Shown one piece after another: positions 56,460 to 64,000 of a stretch of 64,000 nt of DNA; position 1 is the first letter of the stretch, and each line of letters opens with the position of its first letter. The stretch spans positions 1 through 64,000 of the forward strand of contig NZ_JANUCS010000007.1 in the NCBI RefSeq assembly GCF_024808815.1, written 5' to 3'. The notes under the pieces were generated by a model. It was not told the DNA's origin. It saw nothing but the letters and a program-made list of their open reading frames with translations, and made no database searches. The translations under genes and the position numbers were made by a program. This DNA comes from Methanosalsum natronophilum (GTDB lineage Archaea; Halobacteriota; Methanosarcinia; Methanosarcinales; Methanosarcinaceae).

Positions 56460-58226
56460 TTGAAAAATAGCGTATCAAATATTAATCAACTTGATGAAGA
56501 TACCATAAATAAAATAGCTGCCGGTGAAGTAATAGAAAGACCTGCATCAGTTGTTAAAGAATTAATTGATAATTCTGTTGATGCAGAGGCATCAATAATT
56601 AATATCGAAATTGATAATGCAGGATCTGATACAATAGCAGTTATTGACAACGGTGTTGGCCTATCAAAGGCAGATGCTACTTTAGCCTTTAAGAAATACT
56701 CTACAAGCAAAATCAAAAATATAAAAGATCTAGATAAGCTAGCAACTTTTGGTTTTAGGGGAGAAGCATTAGCATCAATTGCCTCTGTATCTAATATTGA
56801 ACTCGTGACCCGTAAAAAAAGCATGCAATCAGGCCTTCATATTTTTATTGATAATGGCTCTTTTAATCAAATCTATGAAGTTGGAGCTAATGTGGGAACT
56901 AAGATAATTGTAAGAAATCTTTTTTATAACACACCAGTTAGAAAAAAATACTTAAAAAGTAAGCGCACTGAAAATTCACATATAGTAGATGTAATCACAA
57001 AACACTCTATTGGAAATCCAAGTATTTCTTTTAAATTAAAGAATGATGGAAAACAACTACTAAATTCACCAGGCTCCAAAAACTTATTAGATACTATAGT
57101 TCATTTGTTTGGAAGTGAACTTGCAAAGTCTTTGATTCCTTTGGAGGCTGAATTGGATGATATAAGGCTTACAGGCTATGTAGCAAAACCAAACTTTACC
57201 AGAAGTAACAATGATCAACAGTACATATATGTAAACAACAAGCCTGTCTCTTCATCATCTATAAGTAATGCTATCAAGCTAGGCTATTATACTAAAATTC
57301 CGAAAGGAAGGTATCCTATAGCTTTCATCAAGGTTGAGGTTAATCCAGAGCATGTAGACTTTAATGTTCATCCAACTAAAGCAAAGGTGCGGTTATTTAA
57401 TGAGAATAAAGTATTGGATTTCATAACCACCTCGGTTGAAAAGGCTCTATCAGAATCAAGTGATTTCTTATATATTTCTAAGAAAAAAAAGCAGCCTAAA
57501 AAGACACATGAAACAAATGACATAATTAATTCTAGTAATCATAAAAAAAATGTCTCTGCATCTTTTAGTTATACAGCAAAAGACACCCAAAAACGAATAA
57601 GGGACAGCGAAAAGAGACTGGCCAAAAATAGGTTGGAAGAAGATGAAAAATCAAATCTGACCAATATAGAAATAGTTGAACAGTTTGATGATACGTATAT
57701 ACTTGCAAAAATGAACGATTCTCTGGTAATTATTGATCAACATGCAGCACATGAAAGGATTATTTATGAGCAACTAAAGTTCAATGATAAAATAACATCT
57801 CAAGAACTAATTTCCCCTATTACATTAGATTTGACCCCAAAAGAAAAAGAAGTGATTGAAGAGTACATTCCTTATTTAGAAAAGGAAGGTTTTGAAATTA
57901 TTGAATTTGGTCCTTCTAGCTATGCTGTAAGTTCAGTACCACAGATATCATATGCTCTTGAAGATCCGAAATCTGTTCTTGATATTATATCTGATTTGAT
58001 TCAAGACGGCATTGTTAATGACGATACTACAATACGTGAAAGTATAATCAAAAAAATGGCATGTAGAGGAGCTATTAAGTCCGGAGCAAAGTGTAATTTT
58101 CAACAAATGAAGTCTTTATTATCTCAACTAGCACTAATGAGTGATCCTTTAACATGCCCTCATGGAAGACCAACGATCATAGCATTTGATCGTGATGAAA
58201 TAGATAAAATGTTTAAAAGAAAATAA
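56460..58226 (+). CDS. mutL: DNA mismatch repair protein MutL (with endonuclease motif)
   Basis: MutL links mismatch recognition to strand removal. The N-terminal GHKL ATPase shows IAAGEVIERPASVVKELIDN, DNGVGL and FRGEALASI. The C-terminal domain has DQHAAHERIIYE (about 426-437) and CPHGRP (about 566), so this MutL is a nicking endonuclease like that of bacteria lacking MutH. A polar linker covers about 340-395. The start is TTG at 56460, with GAGTGATT just upstream. Confidence 0.96.
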   Translation: MKNSVSNINQLDEDTINKIAAGEVIERPASVVKELIDNSVDAEASIINIEIDNAGSDTIAVIDNGVGLSKADATLAFKKYSTSKIKNIKDLDKLATFGFRGEALASIASVSNIELVTRKKSMQSGLHIFIDNGSFNQIYEVGANVGTKIIVRNLFYNTPVRKKYLKSKRTENSHIVDVITKHSIGNPSISFKLKNDGKQLLNSPGSKNLLDTIVHLFGSELAKSLIPLEAELDDIRLTGYVAKPNFTRSNNDQQYIYVNNKPVSSSSISNAIKLGYYTKIPKGRYPIAFIKVEVNPEHVDFNVHPTKAKVRLFNENKVLDFITTSVEKALSESSDFLYISKKKKQPKKTHETNDIINSSNHKKNVSASFSYTAKDTQKRIRDSEKRLAKNRLEEDEKSNLTNIEIVEQFDDTYILAKMNDSLVIIDQHAAHERIIYEQLKFNDKITSQELISPITLDLTPKEKEVIEEYIPYLEKEGFEIIEFGPSSYAVSSVPQISYALEDPKSVLDIISDLIQDGIVNDDTTIRESIIKKMACRGAIKSGAKCNFQQMKSLLSQLALMSDPLTCPHGRPTIIAFDRDEIDKMFKRK

Positions 58227-58270
58227 TTGAATACACTGCATTTATATCTTAAAAGAGGAAACTAGATAGC

Positions 58271-59287
58271 ATGATAGATCCAGTGAATAAATCTGAAATT
58301 CCAGATGAGTGGATAGAAATTTCTTCAATGGAGTCAACAAAATTGATTGAAGGTATTAATAAAGGTATTTATGTACTTCTGAGCAATGGTTCAATCTTGA
58401 ATAGAGGCTATACAACAGGAACCACGGCAGCTATTGCTGCGAAAGCAGCAGTCTTATCACTAAAAAGTGAAGTAAATCATGTATCAGTTCCTACTCCTGT
58501 AGGAATTAGAGCTTCTATGGCTGTAAAAAGCACAAATGGCTATGCATCTGTAAAAAAACCATTTAATGACCATGAATCAGACATAACAAAAGAATTGGAG
58601 TTTGAGGCTAGAGCCATAGAGACTGATGAGATTCAGGTAGATGCTGGACGTGGAATTGGAATTGTTTATCGTGATGGATTACAAATAGATAAGGGCAATC
58701 CTGCAATTAATCCAGTACCCATGAAACAAATAAAGGCTGCAATTAAAGAAGCTGTAGATGAAATTGGAATTTCAGGTGCAAAAGTGACAATTTCTCTTCC
58801 CAAAGGTGAAGAAATCGCTAAGAAAACCCTTAATTACAAAGTAGGAATCAAAGGCGGGATATCAATTGCAGGAACAACTGGATTTGTAGAACCATGGAAT
58901 GACCATTTAGGTGAAATGAAGGTAGATTTAATTAAAGAATCTTCAAAGGTTGTTTTGACTACAGGAAGACTTGGCATTCGCTATTCAAATATTTTATTTC
59001 CAGACCACACTGTAGTTTTAGCTGGTAATCGTATTTCTGAAGCGTTGAAAGTAGCCTCTGGCGATGTAATAATCTGCGGATTGCCTGGTTTGATTTTAAA
59101 ATGGGGGTATCCTGAGATTCTAGAGAATACGCAATATGCATCAGTAGCTGAAATGATTGCAAATGATTTAAAATCTGAACAAATATTAAAAGGATTTCAG
59201 CTAACAGCTAAGAAGGCAGAAAATGCTAGAGTTGTAATCGTTAATAGACAAGGAACCATTATATTAGATAGTGAGGAGCTAAAATGA
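58271..59287 (+). CDS. cbiD: cobalt-precorrin-5B C1-methyltransferase CbiD
   Basis: CbiD performs the C1 methylation in anaerobic cobalamin synthesis. The 338-residue protein has GYTTGTTAAIAAKAA near residue 43, VDAGRGIGIVYRDGL, KGGISIAGTTGFVEPW and TTGRLGIRYS, all family hallmarks. It overlaps cbiE by 4 bp, and the two catalyse nearby steps on the corrin ring. A methanogen needs corrinoids for methyltransferases such as Mtr. The unit converges on cbiQ, tying corrin synthesis to cobalt transport. Confidence 0.96.
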   Translation: MIDPVNKSEIPDEWIEISSMESTKLIEGINKGIYVLLSNGSILNRGYTTGTTAAIAAKAAVLSLKSEVNHVSVPTPVGIRASMAVKSTNGYASVKKPFNDHESDITKELEFEARAIETDEIQVDAGRGIGIVYRDGLQIDKGNPAINPVPMKQIKAAIKEAVDEIGISGAKVTISLPKGEEIAKKTLNYKVGIKGGISIAGTTGFVEPWNDHLGEMKVDLIKESSKVVLTTGRLGIRYSNILFPDHTVVLAGNRISEALKVASGDVIICGLPGLILKWGYPEILENTQYASVAEMIANDLKSEQILKGFQLTAKKAENARVVIVNRQGTIILDSEELK

Positions 59288-59871
59288 TTGTAGTGGGTAT
59301 TGGTGTGGGACCCGGTATGCTCACAGAAGAAGCCATAGATGCTATAAGAAATGCAAATATAATATATGGATCAAAGCGATCTATCGAAATGGTTCGAGAA
59401 TATATCACATGTGAATCAAAAGTGATAAAAAACTATAGAAACTTTGAGGATTTACCAAAGGATGCAGTAGTTTTATCTACTGGCGATCCTATGTTTTCAG
59501 GGCTTGGAAAATATGCATCTGAAAGTGACTATATAATTCCTGGAATTTCGTCACTTCAAATTACTTGCTGTAGATTAGGTGTAAGTATTGATCAAAAATT
59601 CGTTGCTATAACTTCCCATGGACGTAATCCAGCTGCTGCAAAAGAAGCTTTTATTCAAGAGCTAAATCTTGGGAAAACAATATTTTTATTACCTGCAGAT
59701 AATTTTGGGGTACCTGAGATTGTTAAGATAATTAAGGATTCATCCTCTGATGCAGCTATACATGTATGTGAAAATATTGGTTATACCGATGAAAGAATTG
59801 CCTCTGGAACTATAGAGCATCCTCCAGAAGTTAAATCTAAACTCTATAGTATTATGGTAATTCCTAAATAA
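59284..59871 (+). CDS. cbiE: cobalt-precorrin-7 C5-methyltransferase CbiE
   Basis: CbiE is a SAM-dependent methyltransferase with the TP-methylase fold. The 195-residue protein begins IVVGIGVGPGMLTEEAI (SAM-binding G-rich start), then STGDPMFSGLG (the GDP motif) and ITSHGRN. It lacks the CbiT decarboxylase domain found in CobL fusions, so CbiT must be separate. Start ATG overlaps the cbiD stop (ATGA). It converges on cbiQ with 35 bp between stops. Confidence 0.95.
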   Translation: MIVVGIGVGPGMLTEEAIDAIRNANIIYGSKRSIEMVREYITCESKVIKNYRNFEDLPKDAVVLSTGDPMFSGLGKYASESDYIIPGISSLQITCCRLGVSIDQKFVAITSHGRNPAAAKEAFIQELNLGKTIFLLPADNFGVPEIVKIIKDSSSDAAIHVCENIGYTDERIASGTIEHPPEVKSKLYSIMVIPK

Positions 59872-59906
59872 TTCCTCTTTAACTAGAAAAATCTTTTTAA
59901 CAATTA

Positions 59907-60668
59907 TTAGCTTATTACAGGAATTATTTGCACAATTAAAGCAAATATTAATAAAATAGTAGATATTAAGTAATCATTTCTATTCATACTAAAGGTAACA
60001 AATAAATTAGGATTTCCTGTGTAACCTCTAGCAATCATTGATCTATATACTCTTTCTCCTCTATCATAACTTTTTATCAATAACATTCCTATCATATTTC
60101 CAATAGCCGAGAAACTATACATGTCAAGTTTAAATTTAAATCCACGAGCATACATAGCAGTTCTAAGAGTTGATAGCTCATCTATTAAAACAAAGATATA
60201 TCTATAGGAAAAAGAGATAACTTGAACCATTACGTTTGGTATTTTAAGCATATACATTGCTTTTATTATTTCATCGAATTTGCTAGTTGATAACAATAAA
60301 AATGCAATCATTAAAGCTGCTAAAGCTCTTAAGAAGATAAGTGCACCTAACTCAACTCCTTGATTGGTAACATTAAGATATTTTAAATCAACAATAATAT
60401 TACCTTCAACTGTAAATGCCATCACAATAATTATTGTGAAAACAAAAAATGCTGGAAATTTTAAACACTTAGTGACAAAAGATAGGGGAATTCGTGAAAT
60501 AATCACCAAAAGTATAGAGAATATAACTGCAGTTATTGCTATAATAATTTCAGATATAAAAGCGAATGAAAAAATAAGGACTATTAGTGAAATAATTTTA
60601 GCTCGAGGATCAAATTGATGTAATGGAGTTTCTAAATATGAATATTTGTCAATCTTTGGATAACTCAT
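59907..60668 (-). CDS. cbiQ: cobalt/nickel ECF transporter T component CbiQ
   Basis: CbiQ is the transmembrane scaffold that couples the ATPases to the metal-binding subunit. The 253-residue protein has five or six hydrophobic spans, LHQFDPRAKI near the start, and the coupling motif AMYARGF with a second copy, SMIARGYTG (Ala-Arg-Gly boxes), near the C-terminal half. It lies 18 bp after the CbiN-like gene in the cbiM-orf-cbiQ unit. Its ATPase CbiO is encoded 2.6 kb away on the opposite strand. Confidence 0.93.
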   Translation of the reverse strand: MSYPKIDKYSYLETPLHQFDPRAKIISLIVLIFSFAFISEIIIAITAVIFSILLVIISRIPLSFVTKCLKFPAFFVFTIIIVMAFTVEGNIIVDLKYLNVTNQGVELGALIFLRALAALMIAFLLLSTSKFDEIIKAMYMLKIPNVMVQVISFSYRYIFVLIDELSTLRTAMYARGFKFKLDMYSFSAIGNMIGMLLIKSYDRGERVYRSMIARGYTGNPNLFVTFSMNRNDYLISTILLIFALIVQIIPVIS

Positions 60669-60686
60669 ATTTAGACTCCTTGAATC

Positions 60687-61145
60687 TCAATTATTTTTTC
60701 TTCTAGCAGATATTAACATTCCTACTCCTGCAAGGCCAATCAAATACCCAAAACCCGCGAAAACTGCAATAGGGGTTGAGAGTTGACTAGAACCTGGAGA
60801 AGTTCCTCCTTCTTTGACATTTATAGTAGCTTCTTCTTGATGTCCCCAATCGTCATATATTTTTATTCTATACTCTTCATAACCGTCTTTTGGGGTAAAG
60901 GTATACAAACCATCTTCATCAAGTGTATCTTCAATGTATAATAACTCTTCTCCATTTTCGTCGATTGCATAAACCACAATATTTTCATTTGAAAATATGT
61001 CAGTTTCACTATGGTAGCCAAATACTTCAATTTCAACATTTTGGGTTACATCCATATACACAGCATGTCCTGAAACTGGGGTTACAAACCCAATTATGAA
61101 TATTGAGATAAACAGGAATGTACAAAGTATATTGAATCTATTCAT
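60687..61145 (-). CDS. CbiN/NikL-like membrane-anchored extracytoplasmic protein
   Basis: The 152-residue protein has an N-terminal signal or anchor (about 7-27), an extracytoplasmic beta-rich domain (28-115) with DGLYTFTPKDGYEEYRIKIY resembling carboxypeptidase-regulatory-like or NikL domains, and a C-terminal span (about 122-145) ending SARRKNN. It occupies the place of cbiN between cbiM and cbiQ and shares its topology, but the sequence is not an obvious CbiN. It overlaps cbiM by 4 bp. A role as an accessory metal-transfer subunit is inferred. Confidence 0.75.
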   Translation of the reverse strand: MNRFNILCTFLFISIFIIGFVTPVSGHAVYMDVTQNVEIEVFGYHSETDIFSNENIVVYAIDENGEELLYIEDTLDEDGLYTFTPKDGYEEYRIKIYDDWGHQEEATINVKEGGTSPGSSQLSTPIAVFAGFGYLIGLAGVGMLISARRKNN

Positions 61146-61777
61146 TTAAGATCCTCCTTGATTTTTAATTTCATTGGTAAAAGTTCTGGTTTAACTCTAG
61201 CTATATACGCAACTATTGCTCCTGTAAGAATCCCTTCAATTACTATAAGGGGTAAATGTGCAACAAAGGCTACTTGGGCTAGACCATAGAAGTCTTGTCC
61301 GGTAGATACTAGCACGACTACTAGTAAAACTGCTGACATTGCTATAGCTAGCCCCCCACAAATGACAGCAAGAAGTTTTAAAGATATTCCTTTGCCATAC
61401 CCACCCTTAAAGATATAATAAACTATTATAGCTGGTATCCCAACCATTAAAGCATTTACTCCAATTGTAGTTATGCCACCGTGCTGGAACAAAAGCGCTT
61501 GCAAGATTAAACCAACAAACATAGAAGCATAAGCTATCGGCCCTAAGATTACACCTATCAATCCATTTAATATTGGGTGGACACTTGTAGGACCTATCGG
61601 TAAATGAATCAAAGAAGCAACAAAAAAAGCAGCAGTCATGATAGAAAATTTAGGAATCTCTTCTACAATATCAACTTCTTTCATTCTAATTCTAAAAGTT
61701 ACAAATATTAATATGATAGTAATAATCCATCCAGCTGCGATCACGGGCTCAGATAATACTCCATCTGATATATGCAT
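61142..61777 (-). CDS. cbiM: cobalt/nickel ECF transporter substrate-binding component CbiM
   Basis: CbiM captures Co(II) or Ni(II) with its N-terminus. MHISDGVLSEPV supplies Met1-His2 and the ligands of the N-terminal metal loop; HLPIGPTSVHPILNGL and FQHGGITTIGVNAL are the other conserved metal-site segments. The 211-residue protein has about seven spans. AAGGAG lies 9 nt before the ATG. Cobalt is favoured by the adjacent cbiDE genes, but CbiM and NikM cannot be separated by eye. A palindrome at 61851 lies just upstream of the likely TATA. Confidence 0.94.
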   Translation of the reverse strand: MHISDGVLSEPVIAAGWIITIILIFVTFRIRMKEVDIVEEIPKFSIMTAAFFVASLIHLPIGPTSVHPILNGLIGVILGPIAYASMFVGLILQALLFQHGGITTIGVNALMVGIPAIIVYYIFKGGYGKGISLKLLAVICGGLAIAMSAVLLVVVLVSTGQDFYGLAQVAFVAHLPLIVIEGILTGAIVAYIARVKPELLPMKLKIKEDLK

Positions 61778-61850
61778 ATTATTTTACTCCTTTTTAAAGC
61801 ATTACTGATATAACTAATAAAGTATAAAAAAGTAATATAAAGAGTAACAA

Positions 61851-61872
61851 ACATTACCTTAAAGGGTAATGT
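61851..61872. promoter_or_regulatory. palindromic operator upstream of cbiM
   Basis: ACATTACC-N6-GGTAATGT is a perfect 8-bp inverted repeat with spacer TTAAAG. It lies 74-95 bp before the cbiM ATG and upstream of a TATA-like TTTATATTAC/TTTATACTTT region. Its core resembles the palindrome at 63017-63036, so one metal regulator may bind both. Confidence 0.55.
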
Positions 61873-61892
61873 CTGAATTTAAAGGTTTACTT

Positions 61893-62921
61893 TTATTTTC
61901 TTCGTGCAAACAATGCAACTGCTAATATTCCAGCTAGAGCAAAAATAGTTTCAAATCCTGGAGCATCCTCTATATTCTCAAACTCAGGTTCAGGTTCAGG
62001 TTCAGGAGCGGGTTCAGGTTCTAGTTCATTTTTAATTGTCTCTGCATTATCTCTTATATTCTGTGCAAGATTACGCAGATCACTTCTTGAATCCATCCAT
62101 TCATCCCTTAAGGTCTCATCATCAGGGTTTTCCTTATATGCTTGGAATGCAGCTTCGAAGTTCTGGAATTCATCTTGCATATCGTGTAGATCGTCATGCA
62201 TTTCATCTGCAATTGCAGCATGTGATGCAGGTACATCGCCGTAAAGAACATGTACTGGATCACCGAGGTCAATGATATATCCTCTTAGACTTTCCATTCT
62301 TTCCTCAGCTTTATTGAAGTCATTTTCATCATCAATATCGTGTCTCATATCATGAGCAGCTCTATCTGCCTTATGAGCTAGTTCGTGAATGTTAGCAGCA
62401 ACTGACTTAATGTTTCCATCATCTGAATGGCTTGTTTCGTGTCCAAGTTCATCTTTAATTGTCTCTGCATTATCTCTTATATTCTGTGCAAGATTACGCA
62501 GATCACTTCTTGAATCCATCCATTCATCCCTTAAGGTCTCATCATCAGGGTTTTCCTTATATGCTTGGAATGCAGCTTCGAAGTTCTGGAATTCATCTTG
62601 CATATCGTGTAGATCGTCATGCATTTCATCTGCAATTGCAGCATGTGATGCAGGTACATCGCCGTAAAGAACATGTACTGGATCACCGAGGTCAATGATA
62701 TATCCTCTTAGACTTTCCATTCTTTCCTCAGCTTTATTGAAGTCATTTTCATCATCAATATCGTGTCTCATATCATGAGCAGCTCTATCAGCCAAATGAG
62801 CTAGTTCATGAACATTTCCAGCAACACTTTCAATATTATTATCGTGCGAATGTGCCATTGATGGGGTAGCTGCTAAGACTATCAAAATACAAGTAAATAT
62901 CAATATATTTCCAATTTTCAT
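61893..62921 (-). CDS. secreted His/Asp/Glu-rich two-repeat protein with PGF-CTERM tail
   Basis: I know no characterised homologue. The 342-residue protein has a signal peptide (1-23, cleaved before HSHD), two helical repeats of 141 residues (about 29-165 and 170-306) each with eight His and many Asp/Glu (HELAH, AAHDMRHDIDD, EMHDDLHDM), a Pro/Glu linker (about 308-318), and a C-terminal APGFETIFALAGILAV then FARRK, an archaeosortase-type PGF-CTERM signal. His-x3-His pairs on helices suggest divalent metal binding. GAGGTG precedes the ATG. It lies between cbiM and the divergent cbiO, so capture of Co or Ni at the cell surface is inferred. Confidence 0.82.
   Translation of the reverse strand: MKIGNILIFTCILIVLAATPSMAHSHDNNIESVAGNVHELAHLADRAAHDMRHDIDDENDFNKAEERMESLRGYIIDLGDPVHVLYGDVPASHAAIADEMHDDLHDMQDEFQNFEAAFQAYKENPDDETLRDEWMDSRSDLRNLAQNIRDNAETIKDELGHETSHSDDGNIKSVAANIHELAHKADRAAHDMRHDIDDENDFNKAEERMESLRGYIIDLGDPVHVLYGDVPASHAAIADEMHDDLHDMQDEFQNFEAAFQAYKENPDDETLRDEWMDSRSDLRNLAQNIRDNAETIKNELEPEPAPEPEPEPEFENIEDAPGFETIFALAGILAVALFARRK
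62031..62366. repeat. 336-bp intragenic direct repeat, copy 1
   Basis: This segment appears identical at every base to 62454-62789, offset 423 bp, the exact length of one 141-residue protein repeat. It encodes about residues 186-297, the C-terminal repeat. The remaining 87 bp of the unit differ between copies. Confidence 0.95.
62454..62789. repeat. 336-bp intragenic direct repeat, copy 2
   Basis: Identical by eye to 62031-62366. It encodes about residues 45-156, the N-terminal repeat. Perfect identity even at third codon positions means very recent duplication or ongoing gene conversion. Confidence 0.95.
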
Positions 62922-63250
62922 TTAGTTACACCTCATACAATTTTTGAATAAGAGCTCTATAGATTTCATTAGAGTAATTTTCCTTATTGTGTTACGGTAG
63001 CTAAAAATAATGTTATTAGTTACTTAAGGGTAACTATTTGAATAATACTCATTACCTTTTTAGTTAATAATACTTGATTTAAGGTAAACTTGTGTTGTTA
63101 AAAAAAGGATGTAAAATATGCTAAGTTAAATTACCACAATTGCTATATAATATTACAAATAATAATTTAATTTGCTCAAAAATCAAGTAAATTTGTTTAA
63201 TTTATCCTAAATTCAATTTAAAATTAACTCTGAACTCTAGAGGAAAACTC
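62922..63250. other. 329-bp divergent regulatory region of the metal locus
   Basis: The region lies between the leftward secreted-protein gene and rightward cbiO. It holds the palindrome at 63017-63036, a half-site-like TTTAAGGTAAAC at 63078-63089, a pair of AATAATACT direct repeats (63040-63048 and 63066-63074), and a TATA-like GCTATATAATAT near 63139-63150 that suits cbiO. No gene is seen. Confidence 0.5.
63017..63036. promoter_or_regulatory. palindromic operator upstream of the secreted metal-binding protein
   Basis: TAGTTAC-N6-GTAACTA is a perfect 7-bp inverted repeat with spacer TTAAGG, 96-115 bp before the ATG. It shares the TTAC...TTAA...GGGTAA core with the site upstream of cbiM. Confidence 0.55.
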
Positions 63251-64000
63251 ATGGCACTTTTAGAAACATCTCACCTAACTTATTCATATGCTGATGGTAG
63301 CTCTGGTGTTAATAACATCAATATCAAAATCAATAAAAGTAAAAAAGTAGCTTTTGTTGGACATAATGGCTCTGGGAAGTCGACATTGTTCTTGCTTTTA
63401 AATGGAACATTTAAACCTGAAAATGGTAATATTTACTATAAAGGAGAAAAAATCAATTATGACTCAAAAACCCTAAGAAACCTTAGAAAGGAAATTGGGA
63501 TTGTTTTTCAAAATTCAGATGATCAAATTTTTTCTCCATCTGTTTATGAGGATGTTGCTTTTGGGCCAGCAAATCTTGGTTTTTCCAAAGAAAAAACCGA
63601 GACTCTCGTAAAAGGGGCTTTAGAATATGTTGGACTAACAAATGTCAAAGATAAAGCACCACATCACTTGAGTGGGGGACAAAAGAAGAGAGTTGCTATC
63701 GCGGGTATAATTTCTATGGAGCCAGAGGTGATTATTTTGGATGAACCTCTATCAAATCTCGATCCAATGGGTGCGGATGAGATTATGGACTTGTTGAATG
63801 AAATTAATCAGGCAGGAAAAACAATCTTAATATCAACACATGATGTTGATCTTGCATATAGGTGGGCTGATTATGTTTACATTCTTTCTAAAGGAAATAT
63901 AATTGGAGAAGGTACTCCTCAGGATGTTTTTAATCAACCAGAACTTCTGAAAAAAGCACATTTACGTCAACCAGTTACTTTAGAGACATACCATGAATTA
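63251..64000 (+). CDS. cbiO: cobalt/nickel ECF transporter ATPase CbiO (3' end outside window)
   Basis: The frame is open for 250 codons to the end of the window. Walker A is GHNGSGKST (about 38-46), the Q-loop FQNSDDQIF, the ABC signature [13 protein letters not shown] and Walker [13 protein letters not shown]. The D-loop SNLD and ISTHDVD switch His follow. It powers CbiMQ transport. The ATG at 63251 has GAGGA about 8 nt upstream. It is divergent from cbiM-orf-cbiQ, an unusual split for an ECF operon; the missing part should be a short C-terminal tail. Confidence 0.95.

Follow-up and report, generated by a model that had tools for sequence, protein, structure and literature searches.

A secreted, histidine-bearing repeat protein is a probable metal-capture component of a cobalt/nickel ECF importer in Methanosalsum and its relatives

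The locus and the question

The question raised by this locus is what a secreted repeat protein does among the genes of a cobalt/nickel importer of the energy-coupling factor (ECF) class. The window, the whole 64-kb stretch that was analysed, is the initial part of a 106-kb contig from the genus Methanosalsum, and the protein, here called REP (repeat protein), is encoded at 61893-62921 on the minus strand. G and L numbers denote the genomes and loci compared, G000 being the window genome. In the M-L-Q-O type Co/Ni ECF importer of this locus, REP is probably the metal-capture component, extracytoplasmic and lipid-anchored, and stands in the place of NikK. In these methanogenic archaea it probably captures scarce Co or Ni outside the cell, since it is encoded directly before the Co/Ni import genes. 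What is new is an extracytoplasmic component of a transporter class that is already known, and with it a domain family that has no name; no description of the family was found in the literature searched, whose coverage was partial.

Linkage to cobalt/nickel import genes

A profile of the repeat matched 23 of 186 genomes at the level of the order, 25 of 238 at that of the class and 19 of 295 in a sample of the phylum. About 85,000 bacterial and archaeal genomes were also scanned with a stringent pattern, which misses divergent members, and Methanosarcinaceae alone were found. Gene neighborhoods were annotated for 47 family genes in 34 genomes, and 26 of these genomes, from 13 genera of 7 families, have a copy within a Cbi/Nik ECF cluster. 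REP is directly 5' of cbiM in 23 genomes, 17-376 bp away and on the same strand, and in those genomes NikL and cbiQ, usually with cbiO too, share the cluster. The chance of a random gene lying so near a cbiM is estimated by base count at about 0.5%. The flanks vary, with RPA-like genes at L036, aroA-like genes at L071, and sugar-kinase-like and P-type-ATPase-like genes at L081; the surroundings change from one genus to the next, so the cassette acts as a unit. An initial annotation of the window had called for a test of co-occurrence with cbiM and would have been refuted if most homologues were remote from metal transport genes; the homologue search, which could have had this outcome, did not refute it.

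Linkage is undecidable in G016, where the contig stops 94 bp past REP. Of the seven remaining genomes, G057, G078, G236 and G237 have REP as a fusion with FmdE or CbiX-FmdE domains, and G270 as a fusion with propeller-type repeats. In G426 REP adjoins FeoAB, and in G313 it has both FeoAB and a weakly NikK-like gene in its vicinity. Two matches of the first protein search, a coiled-coil protein in G045 and a CobN-like protein in G011, were rejected, and the profile recovers neither. A CbiM-NikL fusion in G327 was also rejected as an artefact of open reading frame (ORF) calling, the true order being REP-cbiM-NikL-cbiQ.

In the window, the minus-strand transcription order is REP, cbiM, a NikL-like gene and cbiQ; cbiO is divergent, and cbiD and cbiE lie past cbiQ. 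The genes are as follows.

61893-62921, minus strand: REP, ORF of 342 amino acids, secreted, PGF-CTERM-anchored, with two 141-residue four-helix repeats; proposed metal-capture subunit
61142-61777, minus strand: cbiM, S component of the Co/Ni ECF transporter (PF01891, 1.4e-52; NF004905 above cut-off)
60687-61145, minus strand: NikL-like membrane-anchored subunit (NF058648, NikL family, 1.1e-11, below its cut-off)
59907-60668, minus strand: cbiQ, T component (PF02361, 1e-41; TIGR02454 above cut-off)
63251-64000 and on to contig position 64609, plus strand: cbiO, ATPase, 452 amino acids for the full ORF (ABC_tran, 7.4e-33)
58271-59287, plus strand: cbiD, corrin biosynthesis (identified from sequence; order matches L136 and L139)
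59284-59871, plus strand: cbiE, corrin biosynthesis (identified from sequence; order matches L136 and L139)

The ORF coordinates place REP between cbiM and the divergent cbiO, as in the initial annotation, whose account of the locus is accurate but omits the NikL-like gene at 60687-61145 as well as cbiD and cbiE. The NikL-like ORF overlaps the end of cbiM by 4 nt, and its phmmer relatives occupy the equivalent position in the cassettes of related genomes. The presence of cbiD marks this as a cobalt locus. An Rfam scan of 58000-64000 found neither a riboswitch nor any other RNA. TTAC-N-GTAA palindromes lie 5' of both REP and cbiM in Methanosalsum (window positions 61854 and 63020; L030), and 5' of REP only at L032. 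A shared metal-responsive operator is not claimed, because the palindromes singly do not exceed chance (shuffle p 0.09 and 0.15) and are missing from most other genera.

Repeat fold and conserved histidines

The repeat period of REP is exactly 141 residues, with 132 identities at that offset and 32 at the next best, and the two repeats are identical at 371 of 384 nt (13 differences). A paralogue on a different contig of G000 likewise has both repeats, each about 95% identical, and the equivalent gene in G001 and G002, of the same genus, has three repeats, so an assembly artefact is unlikely. AlphaFold2 predicts a confident four-helix bundle for a single repeat, with a predicted local distance difference test score (pLDDT) of 92.5 and a predicted TM-score of 0.87, and the whole protein is predicted as two bundles, one per repeat (pLDDT 84.4). 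His makes up 5.8% of REP, the highest value among the 59 long ORFs of the window, Asp 13.2% and Glu 10.8%. Composition and the high-confidence all-helical prediction thus agree with the His/Asp/Glu-rich helical repeats of the initial annotation, which had suggested a structure prediction of one repeat; the bundle that results bears the conserved His. The repeats and their His alignment columns are as follows.

62430-62834, minus strand: repeat 1, residues 30-164, helices H2-H3-H4-H1 (AlphaFold2 helices 30-56, 61-88, 91-123 and 128-164); conserved His at residues 38, 42, 83, 93, 101 and 105
62025-62411, minus strand: repeat 2, residues 171-299, helices H2-H3-H4-H1 (AlphaFold2 helices 171-197, 202-229, 232-264 and 269-299); conserved His at residues 179, 183, 224, 234, 242 and 246

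Conservation of His was counted over 87 aligned repeats, of which one is gapped at helix 2, with G016 taken as ECF-linked. Helix 2 carries an HxxxH pair whose two His are kept in 85/86 and 86/86 repeats, and the pair is retained in REP copies outside ECF clusters. A second set comprises a single His close to the helix-3 end plus an HxxxH on helix 4. This set is kept in 36 of the 42 ECF-linked repeats and in all eight repeats of the paralogues at cob and methylamine loci; in the other copies the helix-4 His are kept in 3/19 and the helix-3 His in 7/23. The second set therefore tracks linkage to Co/Ni genes. REP thus has conserved clusters of potential metal ligands, the helix-2 HxxxH and, when ECF-linked, the helix-3/4 His. 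By residue count, the helix-1 His and those of helices 2-4 lie at a similar height in the bundle.

Profile searches of Pfam, NCBIfam and the PDB gave no family that covers the repeat. Any one Pfam family matches at most 3 of 35 repeats, and the families that do match are weak coiled-coil models; in NCBIfam only the PGF-CTERM anchor is above cut-off. Neither library places a solute-binding protein family over the repeats, TIGR04281 matching the anchor region below its cut-off. The weak Pfam and NCBIfam matches (OmpH, dynein, SMC, FlgK and others) were rejected as coiled-coil composition below the cut-offs, and PDB profile matches to chemoreceptors as probably compositional coiled-coil matches too. 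Foldseek with the whole protein returned vinculin, catenin and talin bundles with poor TM-scores and nothing at E <1e-3, as did a viral library. With a single repeat the best matches were 6n63 (E 0.11) and Csp (E 0.15), again none at E <1e-3. These weak single-repeat matches are often metal-binding four-helix proteins, namely Csp/Ccsp, the iron-binding protein 6n63, YtfE and CopM, and their frequency is suggestive of metal binding. The likeness of REP to these helical-bundle metal proteins is weak and comes without a sequence relationship; Csp binds copper mainly via Cys, not His.

Export and anchoring

The ends of REP appear to direct it to the cell surface. By inspection, its N-terminus, MKIGNILIFTCILIVLAATPSMA followed by HSHD, reads as a classical signal peptide, and a Pro/Glu linker separates the repeats from a C-terminal PGF-CTERM anchor that scores above the curated cut-offs (PF18204, 31.6 vs 18.8 bits; TIGR04126, 25.8 vs 24.5). 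An archaeosortase A gene is present in G000 (TIGR04125, 260.7 bits, G000:C5:23426). The two sorting features are as follows.

62853-62921, minus strand: signal peptide, residues 1-23, probable cleavage between PSMA and HSHD (inspection of translation)
61896-61964, minus strand, approximate: PGF-CTERM sorting signal with PGF motif, hydrophobic helix and RRK tail (PF18204 residues 320-341; TIGR04126 residues 317-341)

The two 141-residue repeats, the Pro/Glu linker and the anchor of the initial annotation are confirmed by the translation, the offset count and the two anchor models, its signal peptide agrees with inspection, and motif and archaeosortase gene together support the surface anchoring of REP. 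REP resembles other PGF-CTERM/archaeosortase A surface proteins in its PGF motif, hydrophobic helix and basic tail, with ArtA in the genome; this likeness covers the anchoring only and is silent on repeat function.

Comparison with NikKMLQO and CbiMNQO

NikKMLQO is a known nickel ECF system (PMC2868824, PMC2667541) in which NikK is periplasmic and NikL is an integral membrane protein (PMC2868824). The archaeal Ni systems in a 2009 comparative survey are of the NikMN type only (PMC2667541). As with REP, NikK (DUF4198, PF10670) is exported, its gene precedes cbiM/nikM, and the cluster also includes NikL, Q and O. NikK cassettes in G022 (L140) and G146 (L143) are laid out like the REP cassette, and REP holds the NikK-like place before the M-L-Q cassette in 23 genomes. 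The two proteins differ in that NikK matches PF10670 while the four-helix repeats of REP are entirely helical and without a Pfam match; the window REP has no PF10670 match, whereas the NikK neighbors at L082 and L083 match it at 1e-26 to 1e-28. The initial annotation compared the locus with ECF systems and left this closest precedent, NikK, unmentioned. REP and NikK are not strictly exclusive, because a REP cassette of Methanolobus vulcani (L082/L155) has NikK and NikL close on its 5' side.

CbiMNQO shares its S, T and A components with the REP system and, in Methanosalsum, also the site beside cbiD-cbiE. L136 and L139, from relatives, carry a classical cbiM-cbiN-cbiQ-cbiO beside mutS-mutL-cbiD-cbiE; in G000, G001 and G002 the same site carries REP-cbiM-NikL-cbiQ with a long-type cbiO, the type found with CbiN. 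The REP system differs in having NikL and REP in place of CbiN and a CbiM of the NikK/NikL-type branch: in the CbiM tree, REP-linked CbiM group with NikK-linked CbiM and are distant from CbiN-linked CbiM. REP is a large exported protein with soluble domains, unlike CbiN and NikN, which are small membrane subunits (PF02553, or two-helix proteins after cbiM). CbiN was not found in G000, G001, G002 and G136, and 105 of the family's 112 genomes contain it. Its absence correlates with REP there (4/7 vs 14/105, Fisher p 0.012), a weak correlation because three of the four genomes belong to one genus.

Metal specificity

The metal imported through the REP cassette is left as Co, Ni or both, because the genus context favors Co and both the CbiM tree and the contents of G142 and G007 favor Ni. 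In G000, G001, G002 and G136 no complete Co/Ni ECF importer other than the REP cassette was found, NikABCDE-type importers not having been searched for, and so the cassette very probably imports cobalt there. No NicO-type transporter was found in G000, and the only other CbiQ of this genome sits in a BioMNY-like cluster. Solitary CbiM genes with no Q or O nearby occur at L028:6065-6691 (G000:C4), L164 (G001) and L167 (G136). The solitary gene is the only other CbiM in G000, and likewise in G001 and G136; it is perhaps a second S component that shares CbiQ and CbiO for the other metal.

It is possible, if short of probable, that REP captures metal as proposed and that the metal is nickel, or both, in which case a cobalt label taken from cbiD and cbiE would mislead. 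The partner of REP is NikL, its CbiM groups with the NikK-linked CbiM, and most carriers retain a Co-type CbiMNQO alongside the REP cassette. G142 and G007 have both importers and no third CbiM, a coexistence that suggests nickel for the REP cassette. Against nickel, neither CbiN nor NikK/NikN-type CbiM clusters were detected in Methanosalsum and G136, so that the REP cassette, with the solitary CbiM, is the only Co candidate found there, and in G331 the cassette lies inside a cobalamin biosynthesis cluster. The CbiX fusions do not discriminate, as chelatases of that family act on both Co and Ni.

Proposed mechanism and alternatives

REP would be exported and processed by archaeosortase, so that a Pro/Glu stalk raises two four-helix bundles (up to three in relatives) off the membrane. 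Co(II) or Ni(II) may be bound in each of them by the universal HxxxH pair of one helix, with additional His ligands from the two following helices in ECF-linked members. The metal would pass from REP to NikL/CbiM, REP loading CbiM perhaps via NikL, and CbiQ and CbiO would import it for the synthesis of corrinoids, F430 or both. By analogy, REP may work like NikK. The surface metal sponge or chaperone for CbiM envisaged by the initial annotation is partly supported, by the ECF linkage in 13 genera, the anchor and the His within a predicted bundle; metal binding, hand-over and the identity of the metal are proposals.

Several observations weigh against metal capture by REP. All of its support comes from the order of the genes, conserved sequence and the predicted fold. 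On a helical wheel the His of helices 2-4 are mostly on helix edges, 110-160 degrees off the hydrophobic face, with the exception of the His capping helix 4. Because they are on edges and not in a buried core, the putative sites may be weak or may draw on more than one helix, and we infer that they are surface sites between helices, not a buried core site. The window REP has Arg at the helix-1 His position of most relatives. A third, divergent clade of orphan copies (L080, L088 and L089) is without recognized metal genes nearby. Finally, REP is accessory, not essential, because it occurs in 23 of the 186 order genomes, compared with 179 for CbiM.

REP could instead be a surface buffer or detoxification sponge for excess Co and Ni (or Fe and Zn), with no hand-over to CbiM. 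Its linkage would then arise because REP and the import genes are both metal-responsive, and storage would suit the tandem repeats, the acidic and His-rich composition, the paralogues outside the ECF operon and the weak fold similarity to the Csp/Ccsp copper-storage bundles (all E > 0.1). We consider this unlikely, since a co-directional gene directly before cbiM in 23 genomes, in the place of NikK at L140 and L143, fits an uptake subunit better, and the recurrent neighbors are import and corrin genes, metal exporters not having been sought systematically. The pairing of REP with a NikL-type subunit in complete clusters, and the frequency of four-helix bundles among sensor and scaffold folds, would also suit a metal sensor or an assembly subunit that keeps NikL and CbiM productive and is not a metal carrier. 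However, the most conserved residues are His in the HxxxH spacing typical of metal ligation, and they are kept in copies outside ECF clusters, which makes such a role quite improbable.

REP might also be thought a generic spacer of the surface or S-layer, whose linkage to the transporter reflects chance or common ancestry, given that S-layer glycoproteins also use PGF-CTERM, that the sequence is partly of low complexity and that orphan copies exist. Neither selective His conservation nor a linkage that recurs across 13 genera of 7 families amid different flanking genes is expected of a spacer, and we give this explanation very little weight. Metal capture for the M-L-Q-O importer is the reading that we prefer.

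Copies outside ECF clusters

The second copy in G000 (L029:5361-6419, G000:C4) is 0.8 kb from a divergent CobW-type GTPase gene and near PAS-domain sensor kinases. In G136 the second copy directly follows cobS-cobY (CobY by inspection; Pfam NTP_transf_3), and in G001 it is about 3.7 kb from mtmB, the monomethylamine methyltransferase gene. The L080/L088/L089 clade keeps the helix-1 His and the helix-2 HxxxH and is without the helix-3/4 His; at L089 the gene adjoins a sodium:solute symporter-like gene.

It is about an even chance that these His-bearing four-helix tandem repeats are a mobile archaeal extracellular metal-capture module, used mainly as a lipid-anchored capture subunit of Co/Ni ECF importers that can take the place of CbiN and NikK, and reused beside FeoAB and in fusions with secreted CbiX/FmdE proteins for handling other metals. 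At L086:7744-12297 and L087:3-4355 (G057 and G078) REP is the N-terminal domain of a secreted protein of about 1500 amino acids with two CbiX (chelatase-family) domains and FmdE, plus a dockerin in L086, which would make it an extracellular CbiX-FmdE protein. At L121, L126 and L132 (G236, G313 and G426) REP genes adjoin split FeoB GTPase/permease and FeoA-like genes, and FmdE- or CbiX-type secreted proteins are encoded nearby. The module may serve ferrous iron uptake too. In G331 an exported protein with no Pfam match (L128:3597-4610) precedes a second cbiM-NikL pair in the cobalamin cluster that also holds the REP cassette, and is possibly another type of capture subunit.

Significance

Metal ECF importers are thought to take Co or Ni directly at the S component, and the roles of CbiN and NikN, which are small membrane partners, and of NikK and NikL are poorly understood. 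If REP captures metal, archaea have an additional capture step outside the membrane. It also offers a testable function for a family that curated profile libraries name only by its PGF-CTERM anchor. The finding bears on the Co and Ni supply of methylotrophic methanogens, which have a very high demand for corrinoids and F430 and live in sulfide-rich, metal-poor habitats.

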